A stretch of 64,000 nt of DNA from Actinomycetota bacterium (GTDB lineage Bacteria; Actinomycetota; Geothermincolia; Geothermincolales; RBG-13-55-18): contig JACIXC010000004.1 in NCBI GenBank assembly GCA_014360655.1, forward strand, positions 62,001 through 126,000, given 5' to 3'. Both the position numbers and the translations under genes were made by a program. Of the stretch, positions 3,717 through 50,138 are shown in pieces (the first letter of the stretch is position 1; every line of letters begins with the position of its first letter). The notes beneath the pieces are model-generated. The model worked only from the letters and a program-made list of their open reading frames with translations, was not told where the DNA came from and ran no database searches.

Positions 3717-3735
3717 GCGCGCTTGCCCGAACCGC

Positions 3736-6054
3736 CTACCGGTTGGGATCGTGACCGAAGACACAGCTCCCTCCTCTCCATGCCGAAGAACCGTAGGAGA
3801 AGTACATGGGACGCTCCGCCACCACCGGCACCCCGTTCAGGGAGGTGACGCGCAGGGAGACGTCTTTGCCCGCCCCCACCGCCTCGTTCACGAAGAGCGT
3901 CTCGCGCGCCCGGGGAGGGACGTAGACCGTCCGGGAGATCACCGGTCCCTGCCCGGGACCCGGGAAGAAGTCCACGCCGGCCACAGCCGCCTCTCCTCCC
4001 GGGTTGGCCAGGGTGAGCCATTCCTCGAAACCGTCGCGGGTGGTCCCCTCCGCGAAGTACCAGTTAATGGAGGGGGATACGGCCCCCACGGCGTTGTGGC
4101 CTCCCTGCACCGTCCCCTTGTAGGAGAAGTACATGGGACGCTCCGCCACCACCGGCACCCCGTTCAGGGAGGTGACGCGCAGGGAGACGTCCTTGCCCGC
4201 CCCCACCGCCTCGTTCACGAAGAGCGTCTCGCGCGCCCGGGGAGGGACGTAGACCGTCCGGGAGATCACCGGTCCCTGCCCGGGACCCGGGAAGAAGTCC
4301 ACACCGGCCACCGCCGCCTCTCCTCCCGGGTTGGCCAGGGTGAGCCATTCCTCGAAACCGTCGCGGGTGGTCCCCTCCGCGAAGTACCAGTTAATGGAGG
4401 GGGATACGGCTCCCACGGCGCTTTCCCCTCCCTGCCAGGCACCGCGGTAGTTGAAATACATGGCCCTCTCGGCGACGATGAAGCCGGCGCTCTGCACCAC
4501 GGCGGACACGTCCTTACCGGGGCCCAGCGCCTCGTTCACGTTGAGGGTGAACCTGCTCGCGGGCGGCACGGAGTAACCCCGGACTTCCTCGCCTCCGCCC
4601 GGCAGGAGAAAGGTGAAGCGGACGTATATGTCCTCCCCTGAGGGATTGAGCACGCAAAGCCATTCCGAGAAACCCTCGCGGGTGGTCCCTTCCGCGAAGT
4701 ACCACCTGTTGGACTGCATGGCGCGCAGCGCGGCGGCCACCTGCAGGATGCCGTGCCCGTGATAGGGGTCCCACCCCGCCGGGCCCAGGTCGCGGCAGGT
4801 CGCGGTTAGTAACCGGGTGATCTCCGGGGGAGAGAGCCTGGGGTCAAGGGAGAGGAGGAGCGCCGCAGCGGCCGCCGCCTGCGGGGCCGCCATGCTCGTC
4901 CCCTCCCCCCACACCAAGGAAAAGCCGGACTGGGGGTTGCCCGCGGTGCGGTAGGACTCCTGGGGGATGCCGTCCCCGTGACCGTCGCCGTTGTCGTCGC
5001 GGGTGAGGTCTCCCCCCGGCGCCACCAGGTCCAACCCCTCCCCGTAGTTGGAGTAGTGGGCGCGCAGGTCGCGGTAGTCCGTGGCGCCCACCGCCAGCAC
5101 GTAGGCGCCCTCGTCGGCGGGGCAGTCCATGCCGCCGGGATAGCCCGGGTCGGAGCCCTCGTTCCCGGCGGCGGCCACGCAGGTCACGCCCTTGCCGTAG
5201 GCGTAGCGCACCGCCTCCCCCACCGTTTCGCTGTGTCGTGGGGAGGCCAGGCTGAGGCAGATCACCCGTGCCCCGTGGTCGGCGGCGTAGCGTATACCGG
5301 AGGCCACGGCGGAGGCGGTGCCCACGCCGTCCGCGTTCAGGACACGCACGGGCATGATGGAACAGCGGTAGGCCATGCCGGCGGCCCGGAAGGCGTTGTT
5401 GTAGGAGGAGGCGATGATGGCGGCCACGTGGGTGCCGTGCCCGTACTCGTCGTCGGGGTAAGCGTCGTTGGCCACGAAGTCGTAACCCGGGACGAAGGAG
5501 GTGTACTGGAAGTCGGGGGCGCGCGAGAAGTAGCCGTCGCTGCGGTAGGCCACCCCGGAGTCCACCACCGCCACCACCACGTCGCCGCTCCCGCCGCCGG
5601 CGATGTCCCATGCTTCCGGCATGGTGATCTTTTCCATGTACCACTGCCTGGGGTAGTCGGGGTCATTGGGCGTGCCCGCCGCCCGGAAGAGGAGGTCCGG
5701 CTCGGCCCAGGCCACCCCCGGCAATCCCTGGAGGCATTCCGGGGACAGGGAGGAGGGGACGTCCAGTAGGAATTCCCCCCCGGGGAGGCGCTCCAGGAAG
5801 CGCGCCCCGCGGGAAAGCAGCTCACCGCGGGCCTTGTCCTGACTCCCTTCCTCCAGGCGCACGATGACCCGTTCGCGGGGGGCTCCATCACCGCTTTCGC
5901 TTCCACCGTCCCCCGCGGCGGAGACGATGCCGGAAAGCGGGAAGGCGAGCAGCAGGACGGCCGAGAGCAGCAACACCGTGAGGAGCCCGGCTTTGTCTAC
6001 GAAACCGTAGCCGCAGCCCTTATCCGCTCCGCCGGCGAGATCTCCCCTGCGCAT
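3736..6054 (-). CDS. Secreted subtilisin-like serine protease (S8) with three C-terminal WYFAEG modules
   Basis: Predicted 772-residue exported peptidase of the subtilase family. I chose ATG 6054, not the longer frame from 6132, because GGAGGA lies 7 bases upstream and the hydrophobic signal segment (LLTVLLLSAVLLLAF) then falls near the N-terminus. A short inhibitor-like propeptide follows (VIVRLEEGS). The catalytic triad is visible: Asp165 in VVDSGVAYR, His206 in YGHGTHVAA, Ser387 in GTSMAAPQA. From about residue 455 there are three modules beginning WYFAEGTTR; the second and third are almost identical over 109 residues, also at DNA level. The protein probably acts outside the cell, with the modules as a wall- or surface-associated stalk; the module role is inference. 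The GH52-like gene follows in the same direction. Confidence 0.9.
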   Translation of the reverse strand: MRRGDLAGGADKGCGYGFVDKAGLLTVLLLSAVLLLAFPLSGIVSAAGDGGSESGDGAPRERVIVRLEEGSQDKARGELLSRGARFLERLPGGEFLLDVPSSLSPECLQGLPGVAWAEPDLLFRAAGTPNDPDYPRQWYMEKITMPEAWDIAGGGSGDVVVAVVDSGVAYRSDGYFSRAPDFQYTSFVPGYDFVANDAYPDDEYGHGTHVAAIIASSYNNAFRAAGMAYRCSIMPVRVLNADGVGTASAVASGIRYAADHGARVICLSLASPRHSETVGEAVRYAYGKGVTCVAAAGNEGSDPGYPGGMDCPADEGAYVLAVGATDYRDLRAHYSNYGEGLDLVAPGGDLTRDDNGDGHGDGIPQESYRTAGNPQSGFSLVWGEGTSMAAPQAAAAAALLLSLDPRLSPPEITRLLTATCRDLGPAGWDPYHGHGILQVAAALRAMQSNRWYFAEGTTREGFSEWLCVLNPSGEDIYVRFTFLLPGGGEEVRGYSVPPASRFTLNVNEALGPGKDVSAVVQSAGFIVAERAMYFNYRGAWQGGESAVGAVSPSINWYFAEGTTRDGFEEWLTLANPGGEAAVAGVDFFPGPGQGPVISRTVYVPPRARETLFVNEAVGAGKDVSLRVTSLNGVPVVAERPMYFSYKGTVQGGHNAVGAVSPSINWYFAEGTTRDGFEEWLTLANPGGEAAVAGVDFFPGPGQGPVISRTVYVPPRARETLFVNEAVGAGKDVSLRVTSLNGVPVVAERPMYFSYGSSAWRGGSCVFGHDPNR
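3793..4427 (-). repeat. Direct repeat of 327 bp within the protease gene
   Basis: Two copies, about 3793-4100 and 4120-4427, have a period of 327 bp (109 codons). By eye only a handful of substitutions separate them, for example gacgtctttgcc versus gacgtccttgcc. They encode WYFAEG modules 2 and 3 of the protease. The near identity points to recent duplication or gene conversion; the first module of the same protein is clearly diverged. Confidence 0.9.
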
Positions 6055-6282
6055 CCCGGTTCCTCCGGTTTCATATGAAAATGGTTCGGCTCGTTTTCCC
6101 GTGCTATGCATGTGACGCCTTTCGCGCGTCACGGTTCCCTCTTGCCCCAGAGCCCGTTTCCCCTCCGGGCGTAAGTCCCGGATACCTGATGATATCCGAT
6201 GATATACGATAAGACGATTGTGCGGTAAAGCAAGGCAAGAATTCCAGGCGCCGTCATGCGGTGCGGTAGGAGGGACGCAGGC

Positions 6283-7446
6283 TTATCCCTGCCCCGGGCC
6301 GCGGGAGGCCAGGTAGGCCTCCAGGCGGCGCGCCCCCTCCTCCAGCCTGTCCAGCCGGTTGGCGTAGCTGAAGCGTATGTAACCCTCCGCCCCGCTGCCG
6401 AAATCTATCCCCGGGGTGACCGCCACGCGGGTGTTTTCCAGGAGCTCCATGGCGAAGGAATAGGAATCGTCGGTGAAGCGCTTCGCGTTGGCCAGGATGT
6501 AGAAGGCGCCGTGGGGCTCCACCGCCACACCGAAGCCGATCTCGCGCAGGCGGGGGAGGAGGAAGCGGCGCCGCTGGTCGTAGGTGCGCACCATGGCCTC
6601 CACCTCCTCGCCGGCCTCGGTGAGGGCGGCGATGCCCGCCCACTGCACGAAGTCGTTGGCCGAGATGAAGAGGTTCTGCATCATCTTCTGTATGGGGCGC
6701 ACGAATTCCGCGGGGGCGATGAGGTATCCCAGGCGCCAGCCGGTCATGGCGTAGAGCTTGGAGAAGCCGTTGATGACGAAAGCGTGCTCTGTGAATTCCA
6801 GGATGGAGTGCTCCCTGCGCTCGTAGACCAGCCCGTGGTAGATCTCGTCGCTCACCACGTAGAGCCCCTTGCGGGCGAAGGCCGCGATCTCCTCCATGGT
6901 CTCCGGCTCCAGGAGGTTCCCGGTGGGGTTGGAGGGGGAGTTGATGATGACGGCCCTGGTCCTTTTCCCCAGGCGCTTCTCTATCTCCTCCGGGCGGTAC
7001 TGGAAACCGTCCTCCTCGAAGACCGGGACCTCCATCGGTCTGCCGTCAACGAACTCCACGATGTTGGGGTAGCAGGCGTAGCATGGGTTGGACAGGATGA
7101 CCTCGTCGCCGGGGTCCAGGAGGGCGGCGAAGAGGAGGAGCATGGCCGGGGAGCTGCCGCTGGTGACGACGACGCGGTCGGGGTCCACCTCCACGTGGTA
7201 TTTCTCGCGGTAGTGCTCGCATATGGCCTCGCGCAGCTCCCGCACGCCCTGGCTGTGTGTGTAGTGGGTCTTGCCCTCCAGCATGGCACGGTAGGCGGCC
7301 TCCTTGACGCAGCGCGGGGTGTCGAAGTCGGGCTCACCCACCTCCATGTGGACGACGTCGTGTCCCTCGCGCTCCATCTGCAGGGCCTTCTCCAGGACCT
7401 CCATGACGATGAAGGGCGGTATGCGTTCGCCGCGGCCGGCTGTCAT
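6283..7446 (-). CDS. PLP-dependent class I/II aminotransferase
   Basis: A 387-residue fold-type I aminotransferase of the aspartate aminotransferase superfamily. Visible signatures are VGEPDF near residue 36, SNPTGNL in the middle, and NGFSKLYAMTGWRLGY, where Lys230 should form the Schiff base with pyridoxal phosphate. Length is normal for the family. The start at ATG 7446 is supported by GGAGGT six bases upstream. The gene is divergent from the translin gene; no biosynthetic partner sits next to it, so the amino acid substrate cannot be named. It probably acts in the cytoplasm in amino acid biosynthesis or interconversion. Confidence 0.88.
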   Translation of the reverse strand: MTAGRGERIPPFIVMEVLEKALQMEREGHDVVHMEVGEPDFDTPRCVKEAAYRAMLEGKTHYTHSQGVRELREAICEHYREKYHVEVDPDRVVVTSGSSPAMLLLFAALLDPGDEVILSNPCYACYPNIVEFVDGRPMEVPVFEEDGFQYRPEEIEKRLGKRTRAVIINSPSNPTGNLLEPETMEEIAAFARKGLYVVSDEIYHGLVYERREHSILEFTEHAFVINGFSKLYAMTGWRLGYLIAPAEFVRPIQKMMQNLFISANDFVQWAGIAALTEAGEEVEAMVRTYDQRRRFLLPRLREIGFGVAVEPHGAFYILANAKRFTDDSYSFAMELLENTRVAVTPGIDFGSGAEGYIRFSYANRLDRLEEGARRLEAYLASRGPGQG

Positions 7447-7493
7447 CGGCTACCTCCGGGATGCCGCTTCCCCTGCAACGAGATTGAAGAACA

Positions 7494-7535
7494 TTATATT
7501 ACACGGGGAAAGGGTTATATTACACGGGGAAAGGG
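7494..7535. repeat. Perfect 21-bp tandem duplication between divergent promoters
   Basis: The unit ttatattacacggggaaagg(g) occurs twice back to back (7494-7514 and 7515-7535) in the 173-bp gap between the divergent aminotransferase and translin genes. Each copy carries an AT-rich TATATT that could serve as a -10 element. It could be a duplicated promoter or operator half. Confidence 0.85.
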
Positions 7536-7619
7536 GAAAGGGCGGCGCATGATGTATAGTTTATCGGGAAGGATAATGGCGAGACCGGGAGGCGGTCGCT
7601 TCATCTGGAAGGAGAGGCC

Positions 7620-8252
7620 ATGGACTGGGAAGCCCTGCGGACGCGCATACGCGCCGATTTCGAGGCCAAGAACAATACCCGGGAGGAGGTCCTGAGGCTC
7701 TGCCGGTCCCTGGTACAGGTCTCCAGCTACGTCATCCGCAGCGTGCACAGGGGGGAGAGGGAGGAGGCGGAGAGGCTGTTGCGGCAGGCGCGGGACCTCT
7801 CGGCCAACATCACCCACATCACCGCTGACCACCCTGAGGTCTACACGGCCGGCTTCGTGCACGACGCGCAGAAGGAATACGCCGAAGCGTGCTCCACCTT
7901 CGCGCTCATCAACGGAGAAGCGCTGCCCGGCCCCGAGGAGCTGGGCGTTGAGTACCCGGCCTACCTGAACGGCCTGGGGGAGGCGGTGGGAGAGTTACGC
8001 CGCGCCATCCTGGACCTCGTCCGCGAGGGGCACCTCGAGCGCAGCGACGAGCTGCTCTCGTTCATGGACGACATCTATTACCTCCTGGTCTCCTTCGACT
8101 ATCCCGACGCCATCACCGGCAACCTGCGCCGCACCACGGACATGGCGCGGGGGATCATCGAGCGCACGCGGGGCGACCTCACCACCGCCATCCGGCAGAG
8201 CAAGCTCAGGCAGGCCATCTCCGAGCTCGAGGAGCGCCTGAAAAACGGCTGA
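7620..8252 (+). CDS. Translin-family protein
   Basis: A 210-residue, largely alpha-helical protein. The C-terminal stretch with SFDYPDAITGNLRR followed by ARGIIERTRGDLT matches the conserved core of translin, a single-stranded DNA/RNA-binding protein best known from eukaryotes and also found in archaea. The N-terminal part (REEVLRLCRSLVQVSSYVI) fits the first translin helices. The start at ATG 7620 follows GGAGAGG with suitable spacing. Family members form multimeric rings that bind nucleic acid; with TRAX they can act as an RNase, but no TRAX-like partner or obvious acidic catalytic triad is seen here. The bacterial role is unknown. It is convergent with the TetR gene downstream. Confidence 0.75.
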   Translation: MDWEALRTRIRADFEAKNNTREEVLRLCRSLVQVSSYVIRSVHRGEREEAERLLRQARDLSANITHITADHPEVYTAGFVHDAQKEYAEACSTFALINGEALPGPEELGVEYPAYLNGLGEAVGELRRAILDLVREGHLERSDELLSFMDDIYYLLVSFDYPDAITGNLRRTTDMARGIIERTRGDLTTAIRQSKLRQAISELEERLKNG

Positions 8253-8253
8253 A

Positions 8254-8272
8254 CCGGGGATGTGATCCCCGG
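8254..8272. terminator. Hairpin between convergent translin and tetR genes
   Basis: A perfect 7-bp inverted repeat (ccgggga / tccccgg) with a five-base loop starts directly after the translin stop codon. There is no strong T-run, so terminator function is only likely. Confidence 0.5.
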
Positions 8273-8330
8273 GCACCGCCACGCATTTCGCGTGGTTCCG
8301 TATCCCTTGACGGCTGGATCGGTACTCGCC

Positions 8331-9062
8331 CTACCCCTCCCCTGCGCTCTCCTTTGCGCCGGTCCCCGCCGCGAAGAGTTCCCGCTCCATGGCTTTCAAG
8401 AAGCGGTCGATGCCCATCTGGGAGGTGGCCATGGCACGGGACTGGTTTCTGACCAGCTCGAAGGCCAGCCGTGTGAGATCGCGATCCTCGTCCCAGAGGA
8501 GGCGCGAGAGGATCAAGCCCACCGAGGATCCGGCGATGAAGGTAGCGGCCAGCTCGGTGTCGCAGGGGATGATCATGCCCCGTTCCAGTAACATGTCCAG
8601 GCTTTCCGCCATCTTCTTTCTCGCGAACACCGCCTGGTTTTCCACCTTCTGCGAGAAGGCGTTATCCCGGCCCATGGCTAAACGGTAGATAATGGAAGTC
8701 AGGTGAGGGTTGTCCCTGTGAAAACGGAGATAGTCGAGGGCGTTCTGCAACCACGCTTCGAGCGGCCGCCCGCCGCCCAGGACGGCTTCCCTTAAGCGGG
8801 CGCTGTTTCTTTCGAGAATGTCCGTAAGCTGTTCGAAATAGGAATTGACAAGCTTGAGAAAGACGTCCTCCTTGGAATCGAAGTAGTTGTAGAAAGTCCC
8901 CCGCGCCACGCCGGAACTTTCCACGATCTCGGTGACCGAAGCGGCATGGTATCCCTTGGTGGCGAATATCCTCGCGGCCTCCCGCAGGATCTGCTGCTCC
9001 CGTTCCTCACGCGCCAGGGAACCCCTTTTTCTCGCCAACGGCGGACCCCCGAAAGACGTCAT
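8331..9062 (-). CDS. TetR-family transcriptional regulator (paralog 1)
   Basis: A 243-residue regulator with an N-terminal TetR helix-turn-helix: ILREAARIFATKGYHAASVTEIVESSGVARGTFYNYF at about residues 25-60 (described in two overlapping pieces, ARIFATKGYHAAS and TEIVESSGVARGTFY). The C-terminal ligand domain is similar along its whole length to the neighbouring TetR (shared FRFHRDN, LTSIIYR and FELVRNQSRA motifs), so the two are paralogs from a tandem duplication. The start at ATG 9062 has AAAAGGA just upstream. Both lie immediately upstream of two paralogous secreted lipases with TetR-like palindromes in their promoters, so lipid-responsive repression is a reasonable inference. Confidence 0.92.
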   Translation of the reverse strand: MTSFGGPPLARKRGSLAREEREQQILREAARIFATKGYHAASVTEIVESSGVARGTFYNYFDSKEDVFLKLVNSYFEQLTDILERNSARLREAVLGGGRPLEAWLQNALDYLRFHRDNPHLTSIIYRLAMGRDNAFSQKVENQAVFARKKMAESLDMLLERGMIIPCDTELAATFIAGSSVGLILSRLLWDEDRDLTRLAFELVRNQSRAMATSQMGIDRFLKAMERELFAAGTGAKESAGEG

Positions 9063-9282: not shown

Positions 9283-10035
9283 TCAGGGTCCCGGTGTGGC
9301 CCGCTCACTCTCGGGAGCGGGGTTTTGGTTGGCGTCGACTGTTGTTTCCTCCATCAGGGAGGGCTTGACGTGGAGGCTTTTTTCCATGGTCGCGAGGAGG
9401 CGGTCGACCACACGCAAGTTCACCGCCAGGGCTCGGGACTGGTTCTTCACCAGCTCGAAGGCGACCTTTTCCAGGTCGTAGTCCTTGTTCGTCGTCACGA
9501 AGTGCATGATGATCTCCAGGGCAGCCCCGGTGATGATGGCCGCGGCCACGTCGAAGTCGCACTGTATGATGAAGCCGCGCTCCGCGAGCATGCGCAGCTC
9601 CGCAGCCAGCACGCGGCGCGAGTAAAGGGCGTAACTCTCCAGCTTTTCGGAGAAAACGGCCTCCTGTCCCATAGCCTGACGGTAGATGATGGAGGTGAGA
9701 TCGATATTGTCGCGGTGGAAACGGAAGAAATCCAACGCGAAGTCCAGCCAGGCGAAGAGGAAGTTGCCGTCCGCCATCAAGGCTCTCTTGATGCGCACGC
9801 TGTTGGCCTCGAGGATCCTGTTGAGGTTCTCAAAGTAGATGTCTATGATGCGTAAAAAGATCTCTTCCTTGGATTTGAAGTAATGATAGAAGGTGCCCCG
9901 CGCCACCCCGGCGCTTTCCACGATGTCCGTAATCGAGGTGGCGACGTATCCCTTGGCGGCGAATATCTTGATGGCCTCGTGCAAAAGCTGCCTCTCCCGC
10001 TCCTTGCGGGGCAGCACCCTTCTCTTCCCACCCAT
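9283..10035 (-). CDS. TetR-family transcriptional regulator (paralog 2)
   Basis: A 250-residue TetR regulator. The DNA-binding helix-turn-helix spans about residues 18-55 (IKIFAAKGYVATS, then TDIVESAGVARGTFYHYF). The ligand domain aligns collinearly with the neighbouring paralog 220 bp downstream. The start at ATG 10035 is supported by GAGGAG five bases upstream. It is transcribed away from the lipase gene at 10797; the 760-bp intervening region carries two palindromic sites. TetR repressors often control a divergent neighbour, so regulation of the adjacent lipases by one or both paralogs is the simplest reading. The C-terminal tail of about 25 residues is low-complexity and not conserved between the paralogs. 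Confidence 0.92.
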   Translation of the reverse strand: MGGKRRVLPRKERERQLLHEAIKIFAAKGYVATSITDIVESAGVARGTFYHYFKSKEEIFLRIIDIYFENLNRILEANSVRIKRALMADGNFLFAWLDFALDFFRFHRDNIDLTSIIYRQAMGQEAVFSEKLESYALYSRRVLAAELRMLAERGFIIQCDFDVAAAIITGAALEIIMHFVTTNKDYDLEKVAFELVKNQSRALAVNLRVVDRLLATMEKSLHVKPSLMEETTVDANQNPAPESERATPGP

Positions 10036-10796
10036 GCTGACTCCTCGACATTCCCGCTCCGGAGGCTCGTTCCCCCTCGCTCAGCATGAAGATATCAGAC
10101 GCAGGCTTGGCGAACAACAATTTCCGGAGGAATTCAGATTTTCAAAGTCTGTTATCCCGTCTGAAAACGTGAGCTCGCTCCGGCTCACGGCACCGATATC
10201 CCATGCCTACTTGCGTGGCGGCAGCCGAGGCAAAAGGACTGCGCCCGGGGGCGAGGTCACCCTCGTGTCCGTGACGCGGGGAAACGCGGACCGGATTCAT
10301 CCCCGGAGGTAAGAGGTGCCTGCCGCTTCCCGCTCGGGTCGGAGGGATGCCCGCGTATTTAGGCCCGGGAAGTGACTGTAGCCTTGCGCGCGCAGCAGGA
10401 AAGGCGCTCTCGATATGCGCTGGCGACGGTCATCGCCGTGAAGAAAGAAATTATACTTGATTGTCAGTAAAATGAAATCGTCCACGATGGCTGTAATCCT
10501 GCAGGTTGTTTAGCAGGAGATATCAAGCATATCCGTTAAAGAAAAAATGTATTGACTAGTCAATCTAATATATGTTAACTTGTCAATAGTTTCTTTCTCG
10601 TATTGTAGGGTGGAATTGGCTGTTTGTTGATTCTTTAACGGTCGGCCCTGGACACCGCATTGGTACTCGTTCCCGTATCTGCGGTGCATGCGGACAGGTG
10701 CGATGGGTTAACGGACAAGGGGGGATGCTAGAGGGAAGATCGGTCGTTTTCAGGACGGCGTCATTTTTTCTCGAAAGATAGAAAGGGGGCAAACGA
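10036..10796. other. Long divergent regulatory region between tetR and lipase 1
   Basis: No convincing gene is seen in these 760 bp. The tetR-proximal half is GC-rich. The lipase-proximal part turns AT-rich around 10430-10600 and contains the paired palindromes described separately. The lipase RBS (AAAGGGGG) lies at its end. The AT-rich core and operators about 230 bp upstream of the lipase start suggest a long 5' untranslated leader. Confidence 0.6.
10547..10589. promoter_or_regulatory. Two tandem TetR-type operator palindromes upstream of lipase 1
   Basis: Site one, 10547-10566, is TGTATTGACTAGTCAATCTA with a perfect 12-bp core TTGACTAGTCAA. Site two, about 10570-10589, carries a degenerate left half (GTTAAC) and a good right half (GTCAATAG). 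The centres are about 23 bp apart, near two helical turns. The first closely matches the perfect palindrome upstream of lipase 2. Binding by the nearby TetR proteins is inferred from proximity and symmetry. Confidence 0.7.
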
Positions 10797-12143
10797 ATGA
10801 GGCGAGGGTTGAGTTACTTCCTGTGTGTATTCCTGTCGGCGTTGTTGGCTTTGGCGCTCATGGCCCCGGCGCTCGCGAATCCTGCGGCAACGGTGACCGA
10901 GGCCGGGGAGGACCTCTATACCGTCACCACCGCCGACGGGGTGGAGCTGGTGATCAAGCACTACCTTCCCGCGGAGGGCGCCCTTTACCGTACCGGGGCA
11001 CAGCCGGTCATCCTCATGCCGGGCCTGCTCTGCAACAACAACTTCTACGAGGTTAGGACGCCCAAGGGGGCTTCCTACAACGGAGTGAAGCTCCCGGAGG
11101 ACCTCCCCGACTGGGCCGAGGGCGATCCCTACATCGAAGCGGACCCCATGAAGTTCTACAGCCTGGCATATTACCTGTGGGACCAGGGATACGACGTGTG
11201 GACTGCAAACTACCGCAGCGAGGGACGTGACGAGATGCGGTGCGGTGGCGCCGGCCCCTTCGCCATCGACGAGCTGGGCGCCAACGACATGCCGGCCATC
11301 GTGACCAAGGTACGCGAGCTCACGGGACAGAAGCCGGTGTGGATAGGACACAGCATGGGTTCCACCATGGCCTACATGTACCTGCAGGGGGCGAGGTTCA
11401 CGGATCCCACCAACACCCAGAGCAAGATCGTCTCCGACCCCGCCCTGGTGGCCGAGAGGAACGACGGGGAAGGCTCGCAGGCCCTCAAGGGCCTGGTGGA
11501 CCTAGACGGTCCCGTGATCCCGGGAGGCTCCATAAACCCGTTGTTGCGGCCGCTGGTCTTCATGCTCCTGGGGGTGCCCATGTACGTTGACCTGCGCCCC
11601 CTCACCGCCAACTTCGGCTACCTGGCGTCCAATCCCATGCTGGCCCTGCAGTCGCTCCTGGCGGCCATGTCGGGGATCATCGGACTCGTTCCCGGCATGG
11701 ACATCTTCAACATCGTGCGCCTCATCAACCCCGGGAACATAAGCGGTTGCGTCTCGAACTTCTTCTTCCAGTTCGTGGTGGACGGCGTGAGCGCCAGGGT
11801 GCTCACCCACTTCGCGGACGCCATCACCTACCGCAAGTTAAGGGAGGACTGGCACAACGCGCCCAAGTGGGGACAGGTGCCGCCGGCGCCAAAGGCGGGA
11901 GACGGTTATTATTACTACTCCGACAACCTGGCCAAGATAAGCCTTCCCGCCCTGGTCATCGCCGACGCAACAAAGGACATCACCAACCCCGGCGACGTTA
12001 AGGGCTTCTATGACAAGAAGACCAGGGACGCCAGGGACCTGTATTTCATGATCCCCAACACCGCCCACGTGGACCTGGTCATCGGCTTGAACGCCCCGCT
12101 GGAGCTGTTCCCGAAGATAGGGTCTTGGCTGGCGAGCCTGTGA
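10797..12143 (+). CDS. Secreted alpha/beta-hydrolase, acid-lipase-like (paralog 1)
   Basis: A 448-residue predicted exported esterase or lipase. A clear signal peptide covers residues 1-27 (hydrophobic run ending APALA). The alpha/beta-hydrolase fold is indicated by VILMPGLLCNN (oxyanion region), nucleophile elbow GHSMGS with Ser186, ADATKDITNP as the likely acid strand, and NTAHVDLV with His424. The overall plan, with a long lid-containing insertion, resembles the eukaryotic gastric/lysosomal acid lipase group. It should hydrolyse ester lipids outside the membrane; the natural substrate is unknown. RBS AAAGGGGG precedes ATG 10797. A closely similar paralog follows at 12566, each gene with its own palindromic operator. 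Confidence 0.87.
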   Translation: MRRGLSYFLCVFLSALLALALMAPALANPAATVTEAGEDLYTVTTADGVELVIKHYLPAEGALYRTGAQPVILMPGLLCNNNFYEVRTPKGASYNGVKLPEDLPDWAEGDPYIEADPMKFYSLAYYLWDQGYDVWTANYRSEGRDEMRCGGAGPFAIDELGANDMPAIVTKVRELTGQKPVWIGHSMGSTMAYMYLQGARFTDPTNTQSKIVSDPALVAERNDGEGSQALKGLVDLDGPVIPGGSINPLLRPLVFMLLGVPMYVDLRPLTANFGYLASNPMLALQSLLAAMSGIIGLVPGMDIFNIVRLINPGNISGCVSNFFFQFVVDGVSARVLTHFADAITYRKLREDWHNAPKWGQVPPAPKAGDGYYYYSDNLAKISLPALVIADATKDITNPGDVKGFYDKKTRDARDLYFMIPNTAHVDLVIGLNAPLELFPKIGSWLASL

Positions 12144-41985: not shown

Positions 41986-44697
41986 ATGGTGGAGATCAAG
42001 TTGAACGGGACGACGGTGGCGGCGGAGGAGGGGAACTCGATCCTGCAGGCGGCGGAGGCGGCCGGGTTCCCGATACCTACCCTCTGCCATCATCCCGCGC
42101 TGGCTCCCGCGGCCTCCTGTCGCATATGCGTGGTGGAGGACGAGTCCACCGGGCGTCTGGTCACAGCGTGTGACACCCGCGTGCGGGAGGGGATGTCCGT
42201 CCTCCTGGACACGGAGAAGGTGAGAAGGGCACGGCGCGCGGCTATCGAGCTCATCTTCTCCTCCCACCCCGTGCACTGCGAGGTATGCGAGAAAAACAAT
42301 GCGTGCGTGCTGAAAGAACTGGCCGTGAAGGAAGGAATCAACGGCCGGGAGCTCTCCTTCGTCCAGGACCTGCGCCCGGTGGTCGACGCCAACCCCTTTT
42401 ACCTGCGCGACCTCTCCAAGTGCATTTCGTGCGGGATCTGCATCAGGGCATGCCAGGAGGTACAGGGGGCCGGCGTCTACGAGATGCGGGGTACGGGAAA
42501 TCGGGCGCGACCGTCCACGGCCATGGACGGAAGCGTGGATTCATCGCCGTGCGAATATTGCGGTTTGTGCGCGTCACTGTGTCCCGTGGGGGCTTTGATG
42601 GCGAAGCCCTTCCTGCACCGCGGAACGGAGGAGAGACGCGTGGTCACCACCTGCCCCTACTGCGGGGTGGGGTGTTCCCTCGAGCTTAAGGTGCGTGAGA
42701 ACCGCATCATCGGGGTCGCGGCGGGAGTGCCGGCATCCGCGAACGGGGTCAGCCTCTGCGTAAAGGGGCGCTTCGGCCTGGATTTCGTGCATCACCCCGA
42801 TCGCCTGCGCAAGCCGTTGCTGAGGAAGGACGGCGAGCTCGTCGAGGTGGAGTGGGAGGAAGCGCTGGATGCCGTGGCCTCGCGGCTTGCGGAGATCAGG
42901 GAAAAGCACGGCCCCCAGGCCGTGGCTTTTCTCTCCTCCGCCAAGGCCACCAACGAGGAGAATTACCTGTTGCAGAAATTCGCCCGCGCGGTGGTCGGGA
43001 CCAACAACATCGACCACTGCGCCCGCTTATGACACAGTCCCACCGTCGCCGGTCTGGCGGCATCTTTGGGCAGCGGGGCCATGACCAACTCCCTCGCCGA
43101 CCTCGCCGAGGCGGAGGTCATCCTGCTCACCGGGAGTAACCCCACGGTGAACCACCCGGTGGTCGGAGAGATCATCAAGCACGCGGTCCTCTCCGGGAAG
43201 GCCAGGCTCATAGTGGTGGACCCCCGTGCCCTGCCCATCGAGGCCTACGCCTCCCTCAGCTTGAGGCCCCGGCCCGGCACCGACGTGGCCTGGATCAACG
43301 GCATGGCACGGGTGATCGTCGAGGAAGGCCTCCACGACGAGGATTTCGTGCGGGAGCGCACGGAGGGTTTCGAGGAACTGCGCCGCGCCCTGGAGGGATA
43401 CGCGCCCGAGGAAGTGGAAAAGATCACCGGCATCCCCTCCGCCGACCTGAAAGAAGCGGCGCGCATGTACGCGGGGGCGGGGCGGGCCGCCATCCTCTAC
43501 GCCATGGGCATCACCCAGCATGTCACGGGGACGGACAACGTGATGGCACTGGCCAACCTGGCCCTGCTCACCGGCAACCTGGGGAAGGAGGGCGCGGGGA
43601 TAAACCCGCTGCGCGGCCAGAACAACGTCCAGGGCGCCTGCGACATGGGCGCCCTCCCGAATGTGTTCCCCGGCTACCAGCGCGTGGATGACCCGGAGGC
43701 GAACGAGAAGTTTTCCCGCGCCTGGGGGAAGGAGCTCCCCACCGTCCCCGGACTCTCGGTGGTGGAGATGGTGGAAGCGGCACGGAGGAAAGAGATACGC
43801 GCCCTTTACGTGCTGGGAGAGAATCCCATGGTCACCGACCCGGACATCGCGCACGTGGAGGAAGGGCTGCGTTCCCTGGACCTTCTGGTGGTGCAGGACA
43901 TCTTCCTGACCGAGACTGCCAGGCTGGCCGACGTGGTTCTGCCCGGCGCCTGCTTCGCGGAGAAGGAGGGGACTTTCACCAGCACCGAGCGCCGCGTCCA
44001 GAGGGTGCGCAAGGCGGTGGAGGCTCCCGGGGAGGCCAGGGAGGATCACGCGGTGATCATGGAGCTCGCGGCACGCCTGGGCTACCGCATGGAATACAAG
44101 GATACGGGGGAGATCATGGACGAGATCGCTTCCCTGACCCCTTCCTACGCGGGGATAAGTCACGCCCGCCTGGAAAAGGCGGGTATCCAGTGGCCCTGCC
44201 CTCAACCCGATCACCCCGGGACCCCCGTATTGCACGTGGGGTCCTTTCCCAGGGGAAAGGGAAGGCTCACCCCCGTGCATTACCGGCCTCCCGACGAGCC
44301 GACCGATAGGGAGTATCCCTTTCTGCTCACCACGGGTCGCCTTCTCTACCATTTCCATTCCGGCTCCCTGACCAGGAGGGTGCGGAGCCTGGCGGAGAAG
44401 GTGCCCCGGGGTTGGGTTTCCCTCCATCCCGAGGATGCCGCCAGGCTGGGTCTTGGCGAGGGTGACGGCGTGCGCCTCACATCGCGGCGCGGGACCCTGG
44501 TGAGCCGCGCCCACCTTTCTACTCGCGTGCAGCCGGGAGTGGTCTTTGCCACCTTTCATTTCAGCGAGGAGAACGTCAACCGGCTCACCAACCCCGCGCT
44601 GGACCCGGTGAGCAAGATCCCTGACCTGAAGGTGTGCGCGGTGAAGGTGGAAAAGGTGGAAGGAGGGGTTGACGATGTCCGTGTCCCCGCAACCTGA
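41986..44697 (+). CDS. fdhA: Selenocysteine-containing formate dehydrogenase, catalytic subunit
   Basis: 903 residues if the in-frame TGA at 43030-43032 is read as selenocysteine (Sec349). The context around it, HCARL-U-HSPTVAGL, matches the active site of formate dehydrogenases (R-V-U-H-G-P-T-V-A), and the frame continues without break as GSGAMTNSLADL to the molybdopterin C-terminal domain. The N-terminal third is a NuoG/HydA-like electron relay: 2Fe-2S domain (CHHPALAP, CRICVVE), HC-x2-C-x5-C, and two 4Fe-4S sites (CISCGICIRAC, CEYCGLCASLCP). CPYCGVGC near residue 222 binds the catalytic-domain cluster. It oxidises formate or reduces CO2 at a Mo or W bis-pterin. Start ATG 41986 follows AGGGGAGG. 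It heads an operon with a NuoEF-like gene, metV and metF. Confidence 0.95.
43045..43061 (+). promoter_or_regulatory. Bacterial SECIS hairpin for selenocysteine insertion
   Basis: GTCGCC and GGCGGC can pair (six pairs, one G-U) around the loop GGTCT at 43051-43055. The stem starts 12 bases after the TGA. The E. coli fdhF SECIS presents the same GGUCU loop sequence at a similar distance, which is what SelB recognises. The RNA fold is read by eye. Confidence 0.8.
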
Positions 44698-46300
44698 GCT
44701 GATGCCCCTGATCCTGGAAGCCTGCGGGGAGAAGGGTTACCTGGACGGGCCGGCACTGGAGAGGATAGCGCGGCGGCTGCGCATACCCGTCAGCCGGGTC
44801 TACGGCTTCCACGCCCAGTTCGCGGAACTCGCCCACCCGCCGCAGCGGCCGCGAGTGATGGTGTGCACGGGGCCGGCGTGTGCCGCGAGGGACTCCCTGG
44901 ACCTGTTGGAGGGGCTGCGGGGAAGGTTGCGGGGGGTGGCGGAAGTGGTGCGCGACCCCGGCCTTACACGCCCGCATCGTTCCCCCTCACTGGTTATCCG
45001 GTTGCCCGGGGAGGGGGAGAGGATGGTGCAGGGCGTCGGCGCGAGCGATCTGGAAGATATTGCCAGGTCGCTGGAAAGAAAGGACCTCTCCGGGTATCCT
45101 CCCACGGAAGGGGATGCCCCGTATCCCGTGGCACGTTGCGGGGAAGAAGGGCTCCCGCCGTGGCTGTCCTCGCTGCAGGAGGGAGGTTCGGAGCCCCCGC
45201 TGGAAAGCTCGTTGCTGGAAAGGGTCGCGCGTGATCCCGCCTTGCTCCTGGAGCATCTGGGAGGATTGAGGCCCGACCTTTCCGACCTGGCGGCGGGAGC
45301 AGCACCTCCCCTTGCCACGCTCGTCTGCGACACGGTGGGGAATTCCCCGGAGAACAGCCCCGACCTGAACCTTTCCCTTTCGTGCCCGCGGACCGTGGTC
45401 GCCGGCGCGGCGCTGGCGGCGGTGGCCATGGGAGCGAAGGACATCGTGTTTTACGTTCCCTGGCACCGTGCCGAGGCCGGTGAGCGCATACGCAGGGCGG
45501 CGGGGGAGATACTCCCAGGGACGGGTATCCGGTACTGCGTTTTCGGGGGGCCGGTGCATATCCCGTGCTCACGGGATATCGGGGTGGCGGCCGTGCTGCG
45601 CGGCATGATGCTGTGGAGGGCGGCGGCGCTCTGCGGGCGGGAGAGTCCACGGCGCATGGAGCCCCCCCTCGCGGTGCTGGACGCCTCCTCCCTGTGGCGA
45701 TTGCCGTGGTCGGTGGAGGGGATGTCGGGGATGGCGGAGGGGAACGCGGGAGAGACCCTGCTTTTGGCCGTCCCCGGGGAATTCCCATGCTGGGTGGAGC
45801 TGCCGCGCCGCGTGGCTGCGGCGGAGTTGGGTCGCTTGCTACCGGGCGGGGCGGGCAAGGGCAAGCCCAAGGGCCTGTACGTGGAAGGGATTGCCGGGGG
45901 GATGTTCCCGGTTTCGGAGGGCGGGACGGAGATCCCGCGCGGGGCGCGCAAGGCTACCGTTATCGAGGAATCCACCTGCACGGCGCGCTGGTCCTTGCAC
46001 CTGCTGGGCAACCTGGAGGAGGGTTGCTGCGGAGGATGTGCCCCGGGGAGGACTGCGCCGGCGGTGGCCGCCCGGATGTTGGGCGACCTCGTTGGGGGAA
46101 GCGGTGGGGGCATGGAGTTGCGGAAACTCGCGGCGTTGCTACTGGAAGCGGAAGGGCTGGCGCTGTGCCCGAGGCTGGGGGAGGCCTTTCCCGCCGTGCG
46201 GGCTTGCCTGGAGAACTTCGGGGACGACTTCCGCTCTTATGAGGAAAAGGAAGGTTTTACGGCGTCGGCCGCCCAAGCCGCGGGGGAAGCCACTAGCTAG
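44675..46300 (+). CDS. Degenerate NuoE-NuoF fusion, formate dehydrogenase-associated
   Basis: 541 residues; ATG 44675 has AGGAGGGG upstream and overlaps the end of fdhA by 23 bases. Residues 1-130 follow NuoE (GYLDGPALERIARRL, VYGFHAQF, VCTGPAC), but the second cysteine pair of the 2Fe-2S site is not seen. The rest follows NuoF order (LVCDTVGNSPENSPDL, a CGEET-like position, then ESTCTARW near 435 and the C-terminal cluster region CCGGCAPGRT and LALCPRLG). The glycine-rich NADH/FMN motif of NuoF is missing, and one of four cluster cysteines appears replaced by Gly. Normal partners pass electrons to NAD(P). Here the flavin site seems lost, so it may be structural, a ferredoxin docking subunit, or decaying. 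Confidence 0.75.
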   Translation: MSVSPQPELMPLILEACGEKGYLDGPALERIARRLRIPVSRVYGFHAQFAELAHPPQRPRVMVCTGPACAARDSLDLLEGLRGRLRGVAEVVRDPGLTRPHRSPSLVIRLPGEGERMVQGVGASDLEDIARSLERKDLSGYPPTEGDAPYPVARCGEEGLPPWLSSLQEGGSEPPLESSLLERVARDPALLLEHLGGLRPDLSDLAAGAAPPLATLVCDTVGNSPENSPDLNLSLSCPRTVVAGAALAAVAMGAKDIVFYVPWHRAEAGERIRRAAGEILPGTGIRYCVFGGPVHIPCSRDIGVAAVLRGMMLWRAAALCGRESPRRMEPPLAVLDASSLWRLPWSVEGMSGMAEGNAGETLLLAVPGEFPCWVELPRRVAAAELGRLLPGGAGKGKPKGLYVEGIAGGMFPVSEGGTEIPRGARKATVIEESTCTARWSLHLLGNLEEGCCGGCAPGRTAPAVAARMLGDLVGGSGGGMELRKLAALLLEAEGLALCPRLGEAFPAVRACLENFGDDFRSYEEKEGFTASAAQAAGEATS

Positions 46301-46311
46301 GGGGGGTGAAG

Positions 46312-46998
46312 ATGAAGAGCATCACCAGGCAGAAGAGTCCCGAGGAGATCGCGAGGATGCTGGGGTCGGCGCGCCAGGTAGCCGTCATCGGCTGCGGGAC
46401 ATGCCCCGCCATGGCCGAGACCGGGGGCCTGCGGGAGGTGGTGGCCATGGCCGACCTGTTGCGGGAGAAGGGCCGGGAGGTCGTCTCGCAAACCGTGCTC
46501 CCCGTGGCCTGCGAGCCCCTTCCCCGCGAGGCCCGCGAGGAATTGTCGCCCCTGCTGGAAAAAGCCCAGGCCGTCCTGGTCATGGCCTGTTCCCTGGGGG
46601 TGCGCATGGTGGCGGATTACGCCGCCCTGCCCGTGCTTCCCGCCTTGGACACCCTCTTCATCGGGAGGGAGGCGGAGCCCGGTTTCTTTACCGAGGAATG
46701 CGCCCAGTGCGGGGAATGCCTGCTGGGCGATTACGCGGGCATCTGCCCCATCGTCCACTGCGCCAAGAGCCTTTTCAACGGGCCATGCGGGGGGTCAGTG
46801 GAGGGAAAATGCGAGGTGGACCCCGATCTTCCCTGCGGATGGCAGCTCATCCACGACCGCATGAAGGCACTCGGCCGCCTCGAGGAGCTCTCCCTCATCC
46901 GGCCCTACAAGGATTGGAGCAAGTCCTTGAGCGGAGGCGCCAGGCGCGCGCGCATACCGGTACCCCCTCCCGGGGATGAGAGTGGAAAGGAAAAATGA
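46312..46998 (+). CDS. metV: MetV-like methylenetetrahydrofolate reductase partner (zinc/iron-sulfur C-terminal domain)
   Basis: A 228-residue protein; ATG 46312 follows GGGGGG (the frame opens at GTG 46306). The C-terminal half has the MetV cysteine pattern: CAQCGEC, GICPIVHCAK, NGPCGGS, GKCEV. The N-terminal half (VAVIGCGTCPAMAETGG) is a Rossmann-like domain with a CxxC. In acetogens MetV is the partner of MetF in 5,10-methylene-tetrahydrofolate reduction, the last step of the methyl branch of the Wood-Ljungdahl pathway. Here metF is two genes downstream, with a histidine kinase gene between. The stop overlaps the kinase start by four bases (ATGA). Confidence 0.87.
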   Translation: MKSITRQKSPEEIARMLGSARQVAVIGCGTCPAMAETGGLREVVAMADLLREKGREVVSQTVLPVACEPLPREAREELSPLLEKAQAVLVMACSLGVRMVADYAALPVLPALDTLFIGREAEPGFFTEECAQCGECLLGDYAGICPIVHCAKSLFNGPCGGSVEGKCEVDPDLPCGWQLIHDRMKALGRLEELSLIRPYKDWSKSLSGGARRARIPVPPPGDESGKEK

Positions 46999-48266
46999 GA
47001 AAACAACTTCTCTACGAGATCTCCAAGCCGGTCATCGCCGCCGTGGGGGTGGAGAACGTCCTGCGCGCCATCGTGGAGTCCATCACCAAGGGCACGGGCG
47101 CGAAGGGCTGCTCCCTGCTGGTGCTGAGCCCCGAGGGGGACAAGCTTTACCGCCGCGTGAGCTACGGCATCAGCAAGGAATACATCGACAAGGGGCCAGT
47201 GGAGATCGACGAAACGGTGCGCGAGGTGCTTGCAGGAAAGGCGGTGGCCGTGAAGGACGTGCTGCACGACCCGCGGGTGCAGTACCCGGAAGCCGCGGCC
47301 AGGGAGGGCATCGCCTCCATGCTCTCCATACCCATGCGTTCTTACGGCGGCATCCGGGGCGTGATGCGCATATACACCTCCAGGCGCCGGGATTTCTCCA
47401 AGGACGAGATCGATTTCCTCGATTCCATAGCGGAGCTCTCCGGGTTGGTACTGGAGAAGGAGGAGGAGCGGGACCGGGTGGCGCTGGAGGCGGAAAAGGC
47501 CAGGCAGGAGCTGCACCGCATGAGCGACGAACGGGAGCACTTCCTCTATTTCATCCGCATGGTGGCCCACGATCTCAAGGCTCCCCTGGCGGCGGTGCAG
47601 AGCTACATCAAGGTCATCCTGCGCGGCAGCACGGGCCCGGTGAACGAGAAACAGAGGGCCTGGATGGAGCGGAGCGTCAAGCGCATAGACGGCATGCTGC
47701 AACTGATCAGCGATATCGTGGACCTGTCCAAGCTGGAAGCCGGCCTCATCGCCCCCGAGCTGGAGACGGTCTCCTGGAAGAACGTGCTGGAGAACTGCAT
47801 AGAGGTGGCCAGGGGCCTGACCGATCCCAAGGGGATCGAGCTGGTGGTGGATATCGACCGGGACCTGCCGGAGATATTCGGTTCGGAGGTACGCCTGTGC
47901 CAGTTGATCAACAACCTGGTCTCCAACGCCGTCCGCTACACCCCGGCCGGAGGCAGGATCCTCCTCCGCGCCTGGCAGGAGGGGGACCGCGTGACGGCCT
48001 ACGTGGAGGACGAGGGGTGCGGGATCCGGCCGGAGATCCTTCCTAAGATATTCGACGATTTCTTCCGGGGGGACCCCGAGGCGCAGGAGGGAACCGGTCT
48101 GGGGTTGTCCATATGCAAGCGCATCGTCGAGATGCACCAGGGGCGCATATGGGCGGAGAGCCCCGCTCCCGGCAAGGACAAGGGAACCCGGGTCACCTTC
48201 ACCATACCCAAGGGAGCCATATGTGACCTGTATTACTGGGACAGGCAGAAGGAGGGGAAGCCGTGA
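46995..48266 (+). CDS. Soluble GAF-domain sensor histidine kinase embedded in the metV-metF operon
   Basis: 423 residues, no membrane segment. A GAF domain (about 15-165; LLVLSPEGDKLYRRVSYG, PMRSYGGIRGVMRIY) is linked by a coiled coil to HisKA with His192 in MVAHDLKAPLAAV, then HATPase_c with an N box (NNLVSNAVRYTPAGG), DEGCGI and GTGLGLSICKRIVE. Its start overlaps the metV stop (ATGA) and its stop overlaps the metF GTG start (GTGA), so all three are probably translationally coupled. Two stand-alone receiver genes follow metF. The GAF ligand is unknown; a cytoplasmic metabolite or redox state linked to one-carbon metabolism is a reasonable guess. The last residues (CDLYYWDRQKEGKP) are unusual for the family. 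Confidence 0.93.
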   Translation: MRKQLLYEISKPVIAAVGVENVLRAIVESITKGTGAKGCSLLVLSPEGDKLYRRVSYGISKEYIDKGPVEIDETVREVLAGKAVAVKDVLHDPRVQYPEAAAREGIASMLSIPMRSYGGIRGVMRIYTSRRRDFSKDEIDFLDSIAELSGLVLEKEEERDRVALEAEKARQELHRMSDEREHFLYFIRMVAHDLKAPLAAVQSYIKVILRGSTGPVNEKQRAWMERSVKRIDGMLQLISDIVDLSKLEAGLIAPELETVSWKNVLENCIEVARGLTDPKGIELVVDIDRDLPEIFGSEVRLCQLINNLVSNAVRYTPAGGRILLRAWQEGDRVTAYVEDEGCGIRPEILPKIFDDFFRGDPEAQEGTGLGLSICKRIVEMHQGRIWAESPAPGKDKGTRVTFTIPKGAICDLYYWDRQKEGKP

Positions 48267-49180
48267 AATCGGGAAGCAACCTGGAAAAAGTGCTGGAGGC
48301 GGGCCACTTCGCGGTGACCGCGGAGATCGGCCCCCCGAAAAGCGCCTCCGCCCGGGTCATAGAGGCCAAGGGGGAACAGATCGGGCACGCCGCCGACGCC
48401 TTCAACGTGACCGATCACCAGACGGGGGTGGTGCGCCTGTGCAGCCTGGCCGCCTGCGCCATCCTGCGCCGCATGGGGCTGGACGCGGTGATGCAGATGC
48501 TGTGCCGCGACGCCAATCGCATACGCCTGCAGGGGGATGTGCTGGGGGCGGTGGCCCTGGACATCCGCAACATCCTCTGCCTTTCCGGGGACCACGTGAA
48601 GTTCGGGAACCACCCGGAGGCCAAGCGGGTCTTCGATATCGATTCCGTGCAGCTCGTCCAGGCGGTGAAGCACATGCGGGACGAGCGCCGTTTCATCTGC
48701 GGCGAGGAGGTGGGGAGCGAGGTGCCCGTGTTCATCGGGGCGGTGGAAAACCCCTATGCCGACCCCTTCGAGTTCCGCACCGCCCGCCTGGCCAAGAAGG
48801 TGGAGGCGGGGGCCGATTTCATCCAGACGCAGGCGGTTTACGACGTCCCCAAGTTCCGCCGTTGGATGGAGGAGGTATGCGAGGCGGGCCTGGACAGAAA
48901 AACGCACATCCTGGCGGGCATCATCCCCGTGAAGTCGGTAGGAATGGCGCGCTACATGCAGAAATACGTTTCGGGGGTGGAGGTCCCGGACGAGTTGGTG
49001 AGGAGGCTGGAGGGAGCCAAGGACGTCAGGGAGGAGGGGATCAACGCGATCCTGGAGATAATACAAGAGGTGATGGAGATACCGGGCGTGCACGGCATCC
49101 ATGTCCAGGCGGTGGGATGGGAGGAGGTTGTGCCGGAGATCATGGAAAGAGCCGGGCTCCTGCCCCGGCCGGTGCTCTGA
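48263..49180 (+). CDS. metF: 5,10-methylenetetrahydrofolate reductase
   Basis: 305 residues from GTG 48263 (GGAGGGG upstream), overlapping the kinase stop by four bases. It is a MetF TIM-barrel flavoprotein: N-terminal strand FAVTAEIGPP with the conserved Glu, NVTDHQTGV, CLSGDH, ENPYADPF, GADFIQTQAVYD, and ILAGIIPVKS. It reduces methylene-tetrahydrofolate to methyl-tetrahydrofolate. With MetV and formate dehydrogenase in one operon it likely works in an acetogen-type methyl branch, or in its reverse, and not only in methionine synthesis. Electrons in MetFV systems often come from ferredoxin or NADH via partner proteins. Confidence 0.95.
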   Translation: MKSGSNLEKVLEAGHFAVTAEIGPPKSASARVIEAKGEQIGHAADAFNVTDHQTGVVRLCSLAACAILRRMGLDAVMQMLCRDANRIRLQGDVLGAVALDIRNILCLSGDHVKFGNHPEAKRVFDIDSVQLVQAVKHMRDERRFICGEEVGSEVPVFIGAVENPYADPFEFRTARLAKKVEAGADFIQTQAVYDVPKFRRWMEEVCEAGLDRKTHILAGIIPVKSVGMARYMQKYVSGVEVPDELVRRLEGAKDVREEGINAILEIIQEVMEIPGVHGIHVQAVGWEEVVPEIMERAGLLPRPVL

Positions 49181-49193
49181 GGAGGTGCTACTC

Positions 49194-49592
49194 ATGCCGC
49201 AGAAGATACTGGTGATAGACGACGATCCGGATATCGTGGACGCCCTCGTGGTGCTGCTGGAGGGCGAGGGTTACGAGGTGGAAACGGCGAGCGACGGCGA
49301 GGAGGGCCTGGCACGGATAAAGGAGCTCAGCCCCGATCTCATCGTGCTCGATCTGCTCATGCCCCGGCTGGACGGTTACGGCGTCTGCAAGACCCTGCAG
49401 GACCCACGCTGGTCCAAGTGGAGGGATATACCAATAATCGTCCTCACCTCCGTGAGCGAAGAGGCCAGCCAGAGGAGGTACGAGCTGGAAACGGGCGTGC
49501 GCATGGACGTGGACGACTACATAGAGAAGCCCATCGATCCCGAGGTGGTGCTGGAGCGCATCCGCAAGGCGCTGGCCAGGAGGGAAGGGTAG
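49194..49592 (+). CDS. Stand-alone response regulator receiver protein 1
   Basis: 132 residues from ATG 49194 (GGAGGTG upstream), 13 bp after metF. A single CheY-like receiver domain: acidic pocket in VIDDDPD, phospho-acceptor Asp in LIVLDLLMP, conserved Thr in VLTSV, and Lys in IEKPID. It has no DNA-binding or output domain. A small insertion (QDPRWSKWRD) precedes the fourth strand. It is likely phosphorylated by the operon's own histidine kinase and may act by protein contact. Confidence 0.93.
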   Translation: MPQKILVIDDDPDIVDALVVLLEGEGYEVETASDGEEGLARIKELSPDLIVLDLLMPRLDGYGVCKTLQDPRWSKWRDIPIIVLTSVSEEASQRRYELETGVRMDVDDYIEKPIDPEVVLERIRKALARREG

Positions 49593-49757
49593 GTTTTGCC
49601 GCGTCGGAGAAGGGGAATGAAGTTAATAACGGAGCCGGAGGAAGGCGTTGCCCATGGCGAAGAGGTGCCGGAGCGAGTTCGAGCCGGGCCCCTTTTTGCA
49701 CAATATGTGTAATATGGGAAAGGGATCGCGCCGCTTGGGAACAAAGGAGGGGGAAGG

Positions 49758-50138
49758 ATGAAAAAGATCCTCTTGGTGGACGACGACCGGGATTTCGTGG
49801 AGGCCACGCGTACCCTGCTTGAAGAGCGGTACGAGGTGGTCGTGGCCTACGATGGGGACGAGGGCATCGCCAAGGCCCGGGAAGTGAAGCCGGACCTCAT
49901 CATCCTGGACGTGATCATGCCCGTGGAGGACGGCTTCACCGCGGCGGACGAGATCGCCGCCGACGCGGAGCTGAGCAAGATCCCGCTCATGCTCCTGACC
50001 AGTTTCGGTTCGCGCATGACCAGGGAAACGGAGATCCCCCGCAGTCGGGGCATGGAGGTGCGGGCGGACGATTACGTCGAGAAACCCGTGGAGCCGGACG
50101 CGCTCCTGGAAAGCGTCAAGAAATTGATCGGGGAATAA
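49758..50138 (+). CDS. Stand-alone response regulator receiver protein 2
   Basis: 126 residues, receiver domain only: VDDDRD, phospho-acceptor Asp in LIILDVIMP, LLTSF and VEKPVEP. It is similar to receiver 1 but separated by a 165-bp gap and has its own Shine-Dalgarno (GGAGGGGGAAGG). It carries a short insertion with RMTRETEIPRSRGM before the last helix. The gap contains an AT-rich cacaatatgtgtaatatg stretch (about 49697-49714) that could be a promoter, so this gene may be expressed both with and apart from the operon. Confidence 0.93.
   Translation: MKKILLVDDDRDFVEATRTLLEERYEVVVAYDGDEGIAKAREVKPDLIILDVIMPVEDGFTAADEIAADAELSKIPLMLLTSFGSRMTRETEIPRSRGMEVRADDYVEKPVEPDALLESVKKLIGE

Follow-up and report, generated by a model that had tools for sequence, protein, structure and literature searches.

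The genes of the CbbRRS system are genetically linked to enzyme genes. In this system, a kinase and two receiver proteins are tied to a CO2-fixation operon in a redox- or energy-linked manner (PMC3018481, PMC6430793). In Ralstonia eutropha, HoxBC, a cytoplasmic redox-enzyme copy that acts as an H2-sensing regulatory hydrogenase, is associated with and read by the histidine kinase HoxJ (PMC6978683), and in the EpsW-EpsZ system of Myxococcus xanthus a single-domain response regulator is proposed to act on an enzyme through direct contact (PMC12802240). These three systems are the nearest in kind to the locus described here, which lies in a stretch of 64,000 nucleotides (the window, meaning the whole of the DNA that was analyzed) from an Actinomycetota bacterium (GenBank assembly GCA_014360655.1, contig JACIXC010000004.1, forward-strand positions 62,001 to 126,000). 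At this locus the gene of a soluble sensor histidine kinase, HK1, stands between metV and metF, the genes of the two subunits of a methylene-tetrahydrofolate (methylene-THF) reductase (MTHFR), and two single-domain receiver genes, RR1 and RR2, follow metF. The sequence evidence points to a putative dedicated signaling link to one-carbon (C1) metabolism.

The metVF locus differs from each of these systems. CbbSR is a hybrid kinase, CbbRR1 has a phosphotransfer domain, and the target is RubisCO transcription, whereas the metVF module has a plain soluble GAF kinase, two receivers that are both single-domain, no regulator gene, and a place in a formate dehydrogenase (FDH)-MetVF operon. No Hpt domain was found in the Pfam search of the window proteins listed. 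Having neither a hybrid kinase nor a phosphotransfer domain, the module is not a CbbRRS member. HoxJ signals to the DNA-binding regulator HoxA, whereas the metVF locus has output-less receivers only. EpsW-EpsZ involves a phosphoglycosyl transferase and a chemosensory kinase, and contact is experimentally supported there, whereas we infer it at the metVF locus.

On the enzyme side, the locus resembles the type II MetVF of acetogens, in which MetF pairs with the Fe-S/Zn subunit MetV and neither RnfC2 nor HdrCBA/MvhD is present (PMC8760232). MetF here has the conserved MTHFR residues, MetV is encoded in the same operon, and RnfC2, HdrCBA, and MvhD, which mark types III and IV, are not among the genes making up the window cluster. 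The difference is that the two genes are split by the kinase gene and then followed by the receivers, and that FDH and a diaphorase-like protein without motifs for reduced nicotinamide adenine dinucleotide (NADH) or flavin mononucleotide (FMN) precede them. No such signaling gene is described for MetVF types I-IV in PMC8760232, the arrangement is not described for the Wood-Ljungdahl gene clusters of related actinobacteria (PMC7325909), and literature searches on MetV or MetF with a kinase or response regulator turned up no description of it.

Gene order and inheritance of the metVF module

All genes of the cluster lie on the forward strand. The metV gene (46312 to 46998), for the Fe-S/Zn subunit of a MetVF-type enzyme, was matched by PF12225 (DUF5981, the MetV C-terminus; E 1.4e-34), HK1 (46995 to 48266) encodes GAF (GAF_2), HisKA, and HATPase_c domains, and metF (48263 to 49180), for the catalytic subunit, was matched by PF02219 (MTHFR; E 3.1e-43). 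RR1 (49194 to 49592, phospho-Asp D53) and RR2 (49758 to 50138, with D51, T81, and K109) each matched Response_reg only. The metV stop codon TGA (46996 to 46998) shares bases with the kinase ATG at 46995 in an ATGA overlap, and the kinase stop codon shares bases with the metF GTG start at 48263 in a GTGA overlap; metV and metF are not directly adjacent, the kinase gene standing between them. The RR1 start (49194) is preceded by AGGAGG, and RR2 starts at 49758, 165 nt after RR1. The cluster begins upstream of metV, with fdhA (41986 to 44697) and a NuoE/NuoF-like fusion gene (44702 to 46300) being part of the same conserved unit. The sequence-only reading of the window had claimed the five genes at these positions with both overlaps, two output-less receivers behind metF, and an FDH gene ahead of metVF; sequence and Pfam confirmed the genes and overlaps, and the other two claims agree with the Response_reg matches and with the location of fdhA. 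Scanning the operon for promoters and terminators gave signals at or near chance levels.

The class of the window's genome was sampled by 31 genomes, and the module occurs in four of its families, labeled f1-f4. The order fdhA, NuoEF-like gene, metV, HK, metF, RR1, RR2 recurs across these families; in all 12 loci the order is metV-HK-metF-RR1-RR2, and fdhA and the NuoEF-like gene lie upstream wherever the contig is long enough. The 4-nt metV-HK overlap was measured in genomes G000, G013, G011, G016, G007, and G315 and was taken from the gene table for G004, and the 4-nt HK-metF overlap was measured in G000, G004, G013, G011, G016, G007, G010, and G001. The corresponding spacings in the remaining loci were 0 to +42 nt. 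We conclude that the gene order is kept throughout and that the tight overlaps are mainly a trait of the window's own family. In another actinobacterium, G281, a pair of genes resembling by eye a nucleotidyltransferase/HEPN pair lies between metV and metF (about 210-930).

The MetF subtype encoded at the locus (75-100% identity) was present in 13 of the 31 class genomes, and RR2 was present in exactly the same 13; a search of the other 383 Actinomycetota genomes in the sample gave no RR2 match at E <= 1e-28. The kinase was found at the locus in 12 of the 13 carriers, and in the thirteenth (G014) a 3471-base contig stops a few bases past the start of metF, leaving the position of the kinase off the contig. 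Presence was all-or-none within genera g3, g5, g6, and g14 and family f2. Genus by genus, the complete set was found in G007 but not in G008 or G009, in G016 but not in G015 or G017, in G013, G011, and G014 but not in G012, and in G115 but not in G246; in one family, G001 has it and G002 does not (the absences in G012, G002, and G246 rest on genomes only ~80% complete). The cluster is thus inherited or lost as a unit. The sequence-only reading had proposed comparing gene order and co-occurrence in relatives and had held that absence of the kinase and receivers from the metVF locus of all close relatives would count against it; the order is instead conserved in four families, and comparative genomics gives strong support to the core idea of that reading, that signaling genes are built into the metVF operon, through the conserved order, co-inheritance that is all-or-none, gene trees that agree, and purifying selection.

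For comparison, 34 other metVF loci were inspected, comprising 17 from the class and 17 from other classes whose MetF ranks next in similarity, and none of them showed a kinase or receiver gene within 1.5 kb. Several of the loci from other classes belong to Wood-Ljungdahl clusters of the ordinary kind, in which metF comes straight after metV. The kinase insertion is therefore specific to this MetF subtype. A broad kinase scan of named genomes returned only one close relative, together with distant GAF or kinase matches that have no metVF in their flanks; the scan used query-specific peptides and does not show absence from other phyla. Sampling was deeper for Actinomycetota than for other phyla.

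The ratio of nonsynonymous to synonymous substitution rates (dN/dS) was 0.03-0.23 across all five genes. For RR2 it was 0.04-0.10, near that of metF (0.03-0.07), and RR2 is as constrained as metF. In gene trees, the metF subtype formed one clade (support 100/100) whose branching follows the families, and the HK1, RR2, metF, and metV genes of the locus each formed a well-supported group. The HK, metF, metV, and RR1 trees share the broad f1 / f2+f3 / f4 divisions.

The kinase and the two receivers

HK1 is an orthodox histidine kinase with H192 in VAHDLKAP and no receiver domain, and all 12 orthologues at the locus conserve boxes H, N, G1, F, and G2. An AlphaFold model of the kinase made from two sequences had a mean predicted local distance difference test score (pLDDT) of 37.7 and was not used. 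The adjoining FDH gene raised the possibility that the GAF domain senses formate, but no residue evidence supports this, and it is not claimed. Each of two tandem GAF domains in certain Desulfobacterota proteins (coordinates near 10001-10933; one at 3625-4557) is ~30% identical to the kinase GAF.

An unlinked paralogous pair, HK2-RR, was found on contig 5 of G000 (6746-8693) and also occurs in relatives without the module. HK1 of the locus and the unlinked HK2 formed separate clades with full support, the receiver beside HK2 grouped with RR1-type receivers (the RR1 grouping being poorly supported, 34/0), and RR2 formed a long, separate, fully supported branch. The possibility that HK2-RR belongs to another metabolic operon was rejected on the ground that its neighbors differ among genomes (hydroxyethylthiazole kinase, a glycerol-3-phosphate oxidase-like protein, and DNA ligase). 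On these relationships, HK1-RR1 is a paralogue of the HK2-RR pair, with RR2 alone specific to the enzyme locus, and RR1 is the probable primary partner of HK1. We infer that HK1-RR1 would be the basic signaling pair and RR2 the part specific to the enzyme locus.

The receiver catalytic residues (the acidic pair, phospho-Asp, Thr, and Lys) are invariant in the RR1 and RR2 alignments, and Pfam and domain searches found a DNA-binding domain in neither receiver. Receivers commonly use the beta4-alpha4 region as part of their output face. The predicted structure of RR2 is a normal receiver fold (pLDDT 83) with about six residues more after beta4 than solved receivers; its invariance outside the active site is highest in the beta4-alpha4 region, where the stretch RMxxETxIPRSRG is nearly invariant across the four families. 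This extended stretch was ruled out as sole evidence of enzyme binding, since RR1 and unlinked paralogues carry a similar insertion.

The associated enzymes

Residues E21, D110, and Q188 of MetF are invariant and align with catalytic or flavin positions of solved MTHFRs. The subtype has changes of its own at positions that vary little or not at all in other MetF proteins. Examples are M282Q and, in the LTCRD motif, T80L, in which it differs from all 32 MetF proteins compared from the other two groups. The fdhA product joins a NuoG-like N-terminal Fe-S region to an FDH alpha region, and the in-frame TGA at 43030-43032 occupies the active-site selenocysteine (Sec) position (DHCARL-U-HSPTV). The part after the TGA matched TIGR01591 (E 5.6e-200), and a tRNA-Sec was matched in the genome at 81.8 bits. 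The active-site residue is Sec in G000, G013, G016, G007, G010, G003, G093, and G115 and Cys (TGC) in G004, G011, and G001.

The NuoEF-like protein no longer has the NADH motif GRGGxGFP, the FMN motif NADEG, or the second of the NuoE cysteine pairs, and is left without part of its cluster ligands. Complex1_51K was below cut-off or gave no match in the six NuoEF-like orthologues tested, whereas the genome's Wood-Ljungdahl NuoF scored 161.5 bits. The protein evolves fast (26-60% identity between orthologues) beside very conserved neighbors, and from its sequence it is possibly a non-redox adaptor. Because its NADH and FMN motifs are missing, an NAD-linked role for the FDH of the locus is unlikely.

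The genome has three MTHFR genes. One of them, on contig 2, sits with metV, nuoE, nuoF, and fdhA in what looks like a Wood-Ljungdahl cluster, and the locus FDH and metVF are a second, accessory set beside it. A Wood-Ljungdahl-type metF is also found in about 10 of the 13 module carriers, with no match at E <= 1e-30 in G007 and G315 (both ~90% complete) and G013 (98%). Since most carriers also keep the Wood-Ljungdahl metVF, we regard the module as an accessory, signal-coupled C1 redox unit.

A proposed link to one-carbon metabolism and its alternatives

The likeliest of the readings considered, though short of even odds, is that HK1 may read a C1 or redox cue and, through RR1 and RR2, may tune the FDH-MetVF unit by protein contact, with the sensing, the phosphotransfer, and the contact each deduced from the locus. 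The sequence-only reading had likewise raised folate-pool, flavin, or redox state as a possible signal and direct receiver-enzyme contact as a possible action; it had not remarked on the accessory status of the set, the lost NADH and FMN motifs, the HK2-RR paralogy, or the abundance of output-less receivers in the genome. The GAF domain of HK1 would read an intracellular cue tied to the FDH-MetVF reaction, such as formate, folate, or redox state, or else the input could be contact of HK1 with the co-translated enzyme subunits. HK1 would then phosphorylate RR1 and probably RR2. RR2 is proposed to carry the output because its presence tracks that of MetF exactly; it would act by protein binding, most simply to the complex of MetVF, FDH, and adaptor, and adjust C1 reduction post-translationally, and RR1 could be a partner, a phosphate sink, or a second output. 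Direct control of an enzyme by a receiver has a published precedent in EpsW-EpsZ (PMC12802240).

Several observations count against this proposal. RR1 also has a conserved insertion placed similarly to that of RR2, and RR1 paralogues occur elsewhere and are not confined to this type of enzyme locus. Output-less receivers are common in the genome (about 13 of 33 receiver matches), so the missing output domain alone does not imply enzyme contact, and the receivers might just as well signal to a regulator encoded elsewhere, DNA-binding or not. G010 has an additional HK1-RR1 pair away from metVF and without RR2, so the pair does not depend on these enzymes to function. Finally, the overlaps are not conserved in family f4 and may merely reflect compact operon design. 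The extra G010 pair (contig 6, about 5485-7679) adjoins genes for Ppx/GppA and DUF501 proteins and has another receiver after it.

The first alternative to direct contact is an indirect control of transcription, in which a phospho-network of HK1, RR1, and RR2 would act on a DNA-binding regulator encoded separately, or on another kinase, which in turn would control expression of the operon or of C1 genes in general. The CbbRRS system of Rhodopseudomonas palustris, with its kinase and receivers that lack a DNA-binding output and are tied to a CO2-fixation operon, is a precedent (PMC3018481, PMC6430793), and the genome, with about 33 receiver and 30 HisKA matches, offers candidate partners. However, conservation at the locus does not extend to any regulator gene, and the hybrid kinase and phosphotransfer domain of CbbRRS are absent from it, and we consider this explanation unlikely.

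A second alternative reverses the direction of signaling, as in HoxBC-HoxJ (PMC6978683). A duplicated FDH-MetVF complex would have turned into a C1 or redox sensor, HK1 would read its turnover or Fe-S redox state directly, and RR1 and RR2 would signal to metabolism or behavior elsewhere, with RR2 reporting or feeding back. The co-translation of the kinase with both MetVF subunits, the T80L and M282Q changes, the NADH and FMN motifs lost from the NuoEF-like protein, and the extra copy of metF in about 10 of the 13 carriers are consistent with such a role. Catalytic residues of MetF and FDH are nevertheless kept, purifying selection on MetF is as strong as for a working enzyme, HK1 has a GAF sensor domain of its own, and in G013 (98% complete), which has no match to a Wood-Ljungdahl-type metF, the locus copy may do housekeeping. 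We judge this explanation distinctly unlikely; if it were true, the locus would be an enzyme-as-sensor system made from enzymes of the Wood-Ljungdahl pathway.

A third alternative, in which an ancestor acquired a general HK-RR pair in the metV-metF gap and operon inertia has kept it there, is very unlikely. The stand-alone paralogue of HK1-RR1 and the unrelated gene pair that also entered this gap in G281 speak for it, but it is weakened by the same order in four families, the all-or-none loss, and the restriction of RR2 to the locus, which inertia would hardly explain.

How flux is set at the methylene-THF reductase step is poorly known, no two-component system was found described as tied to this enzyme in the literature searches made, and the electron donor of MetVF enzymes is still debated (PMC8760232). 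The co-inherited kinase and its two receivers provide concrete proteins with which post-translational or sensory control of C1 reduction can be studied. If the receivers do bind MetVF or FDH, as the proposed contact mechanism would have it, single-domain response regulators would gain a target in central metabolism.

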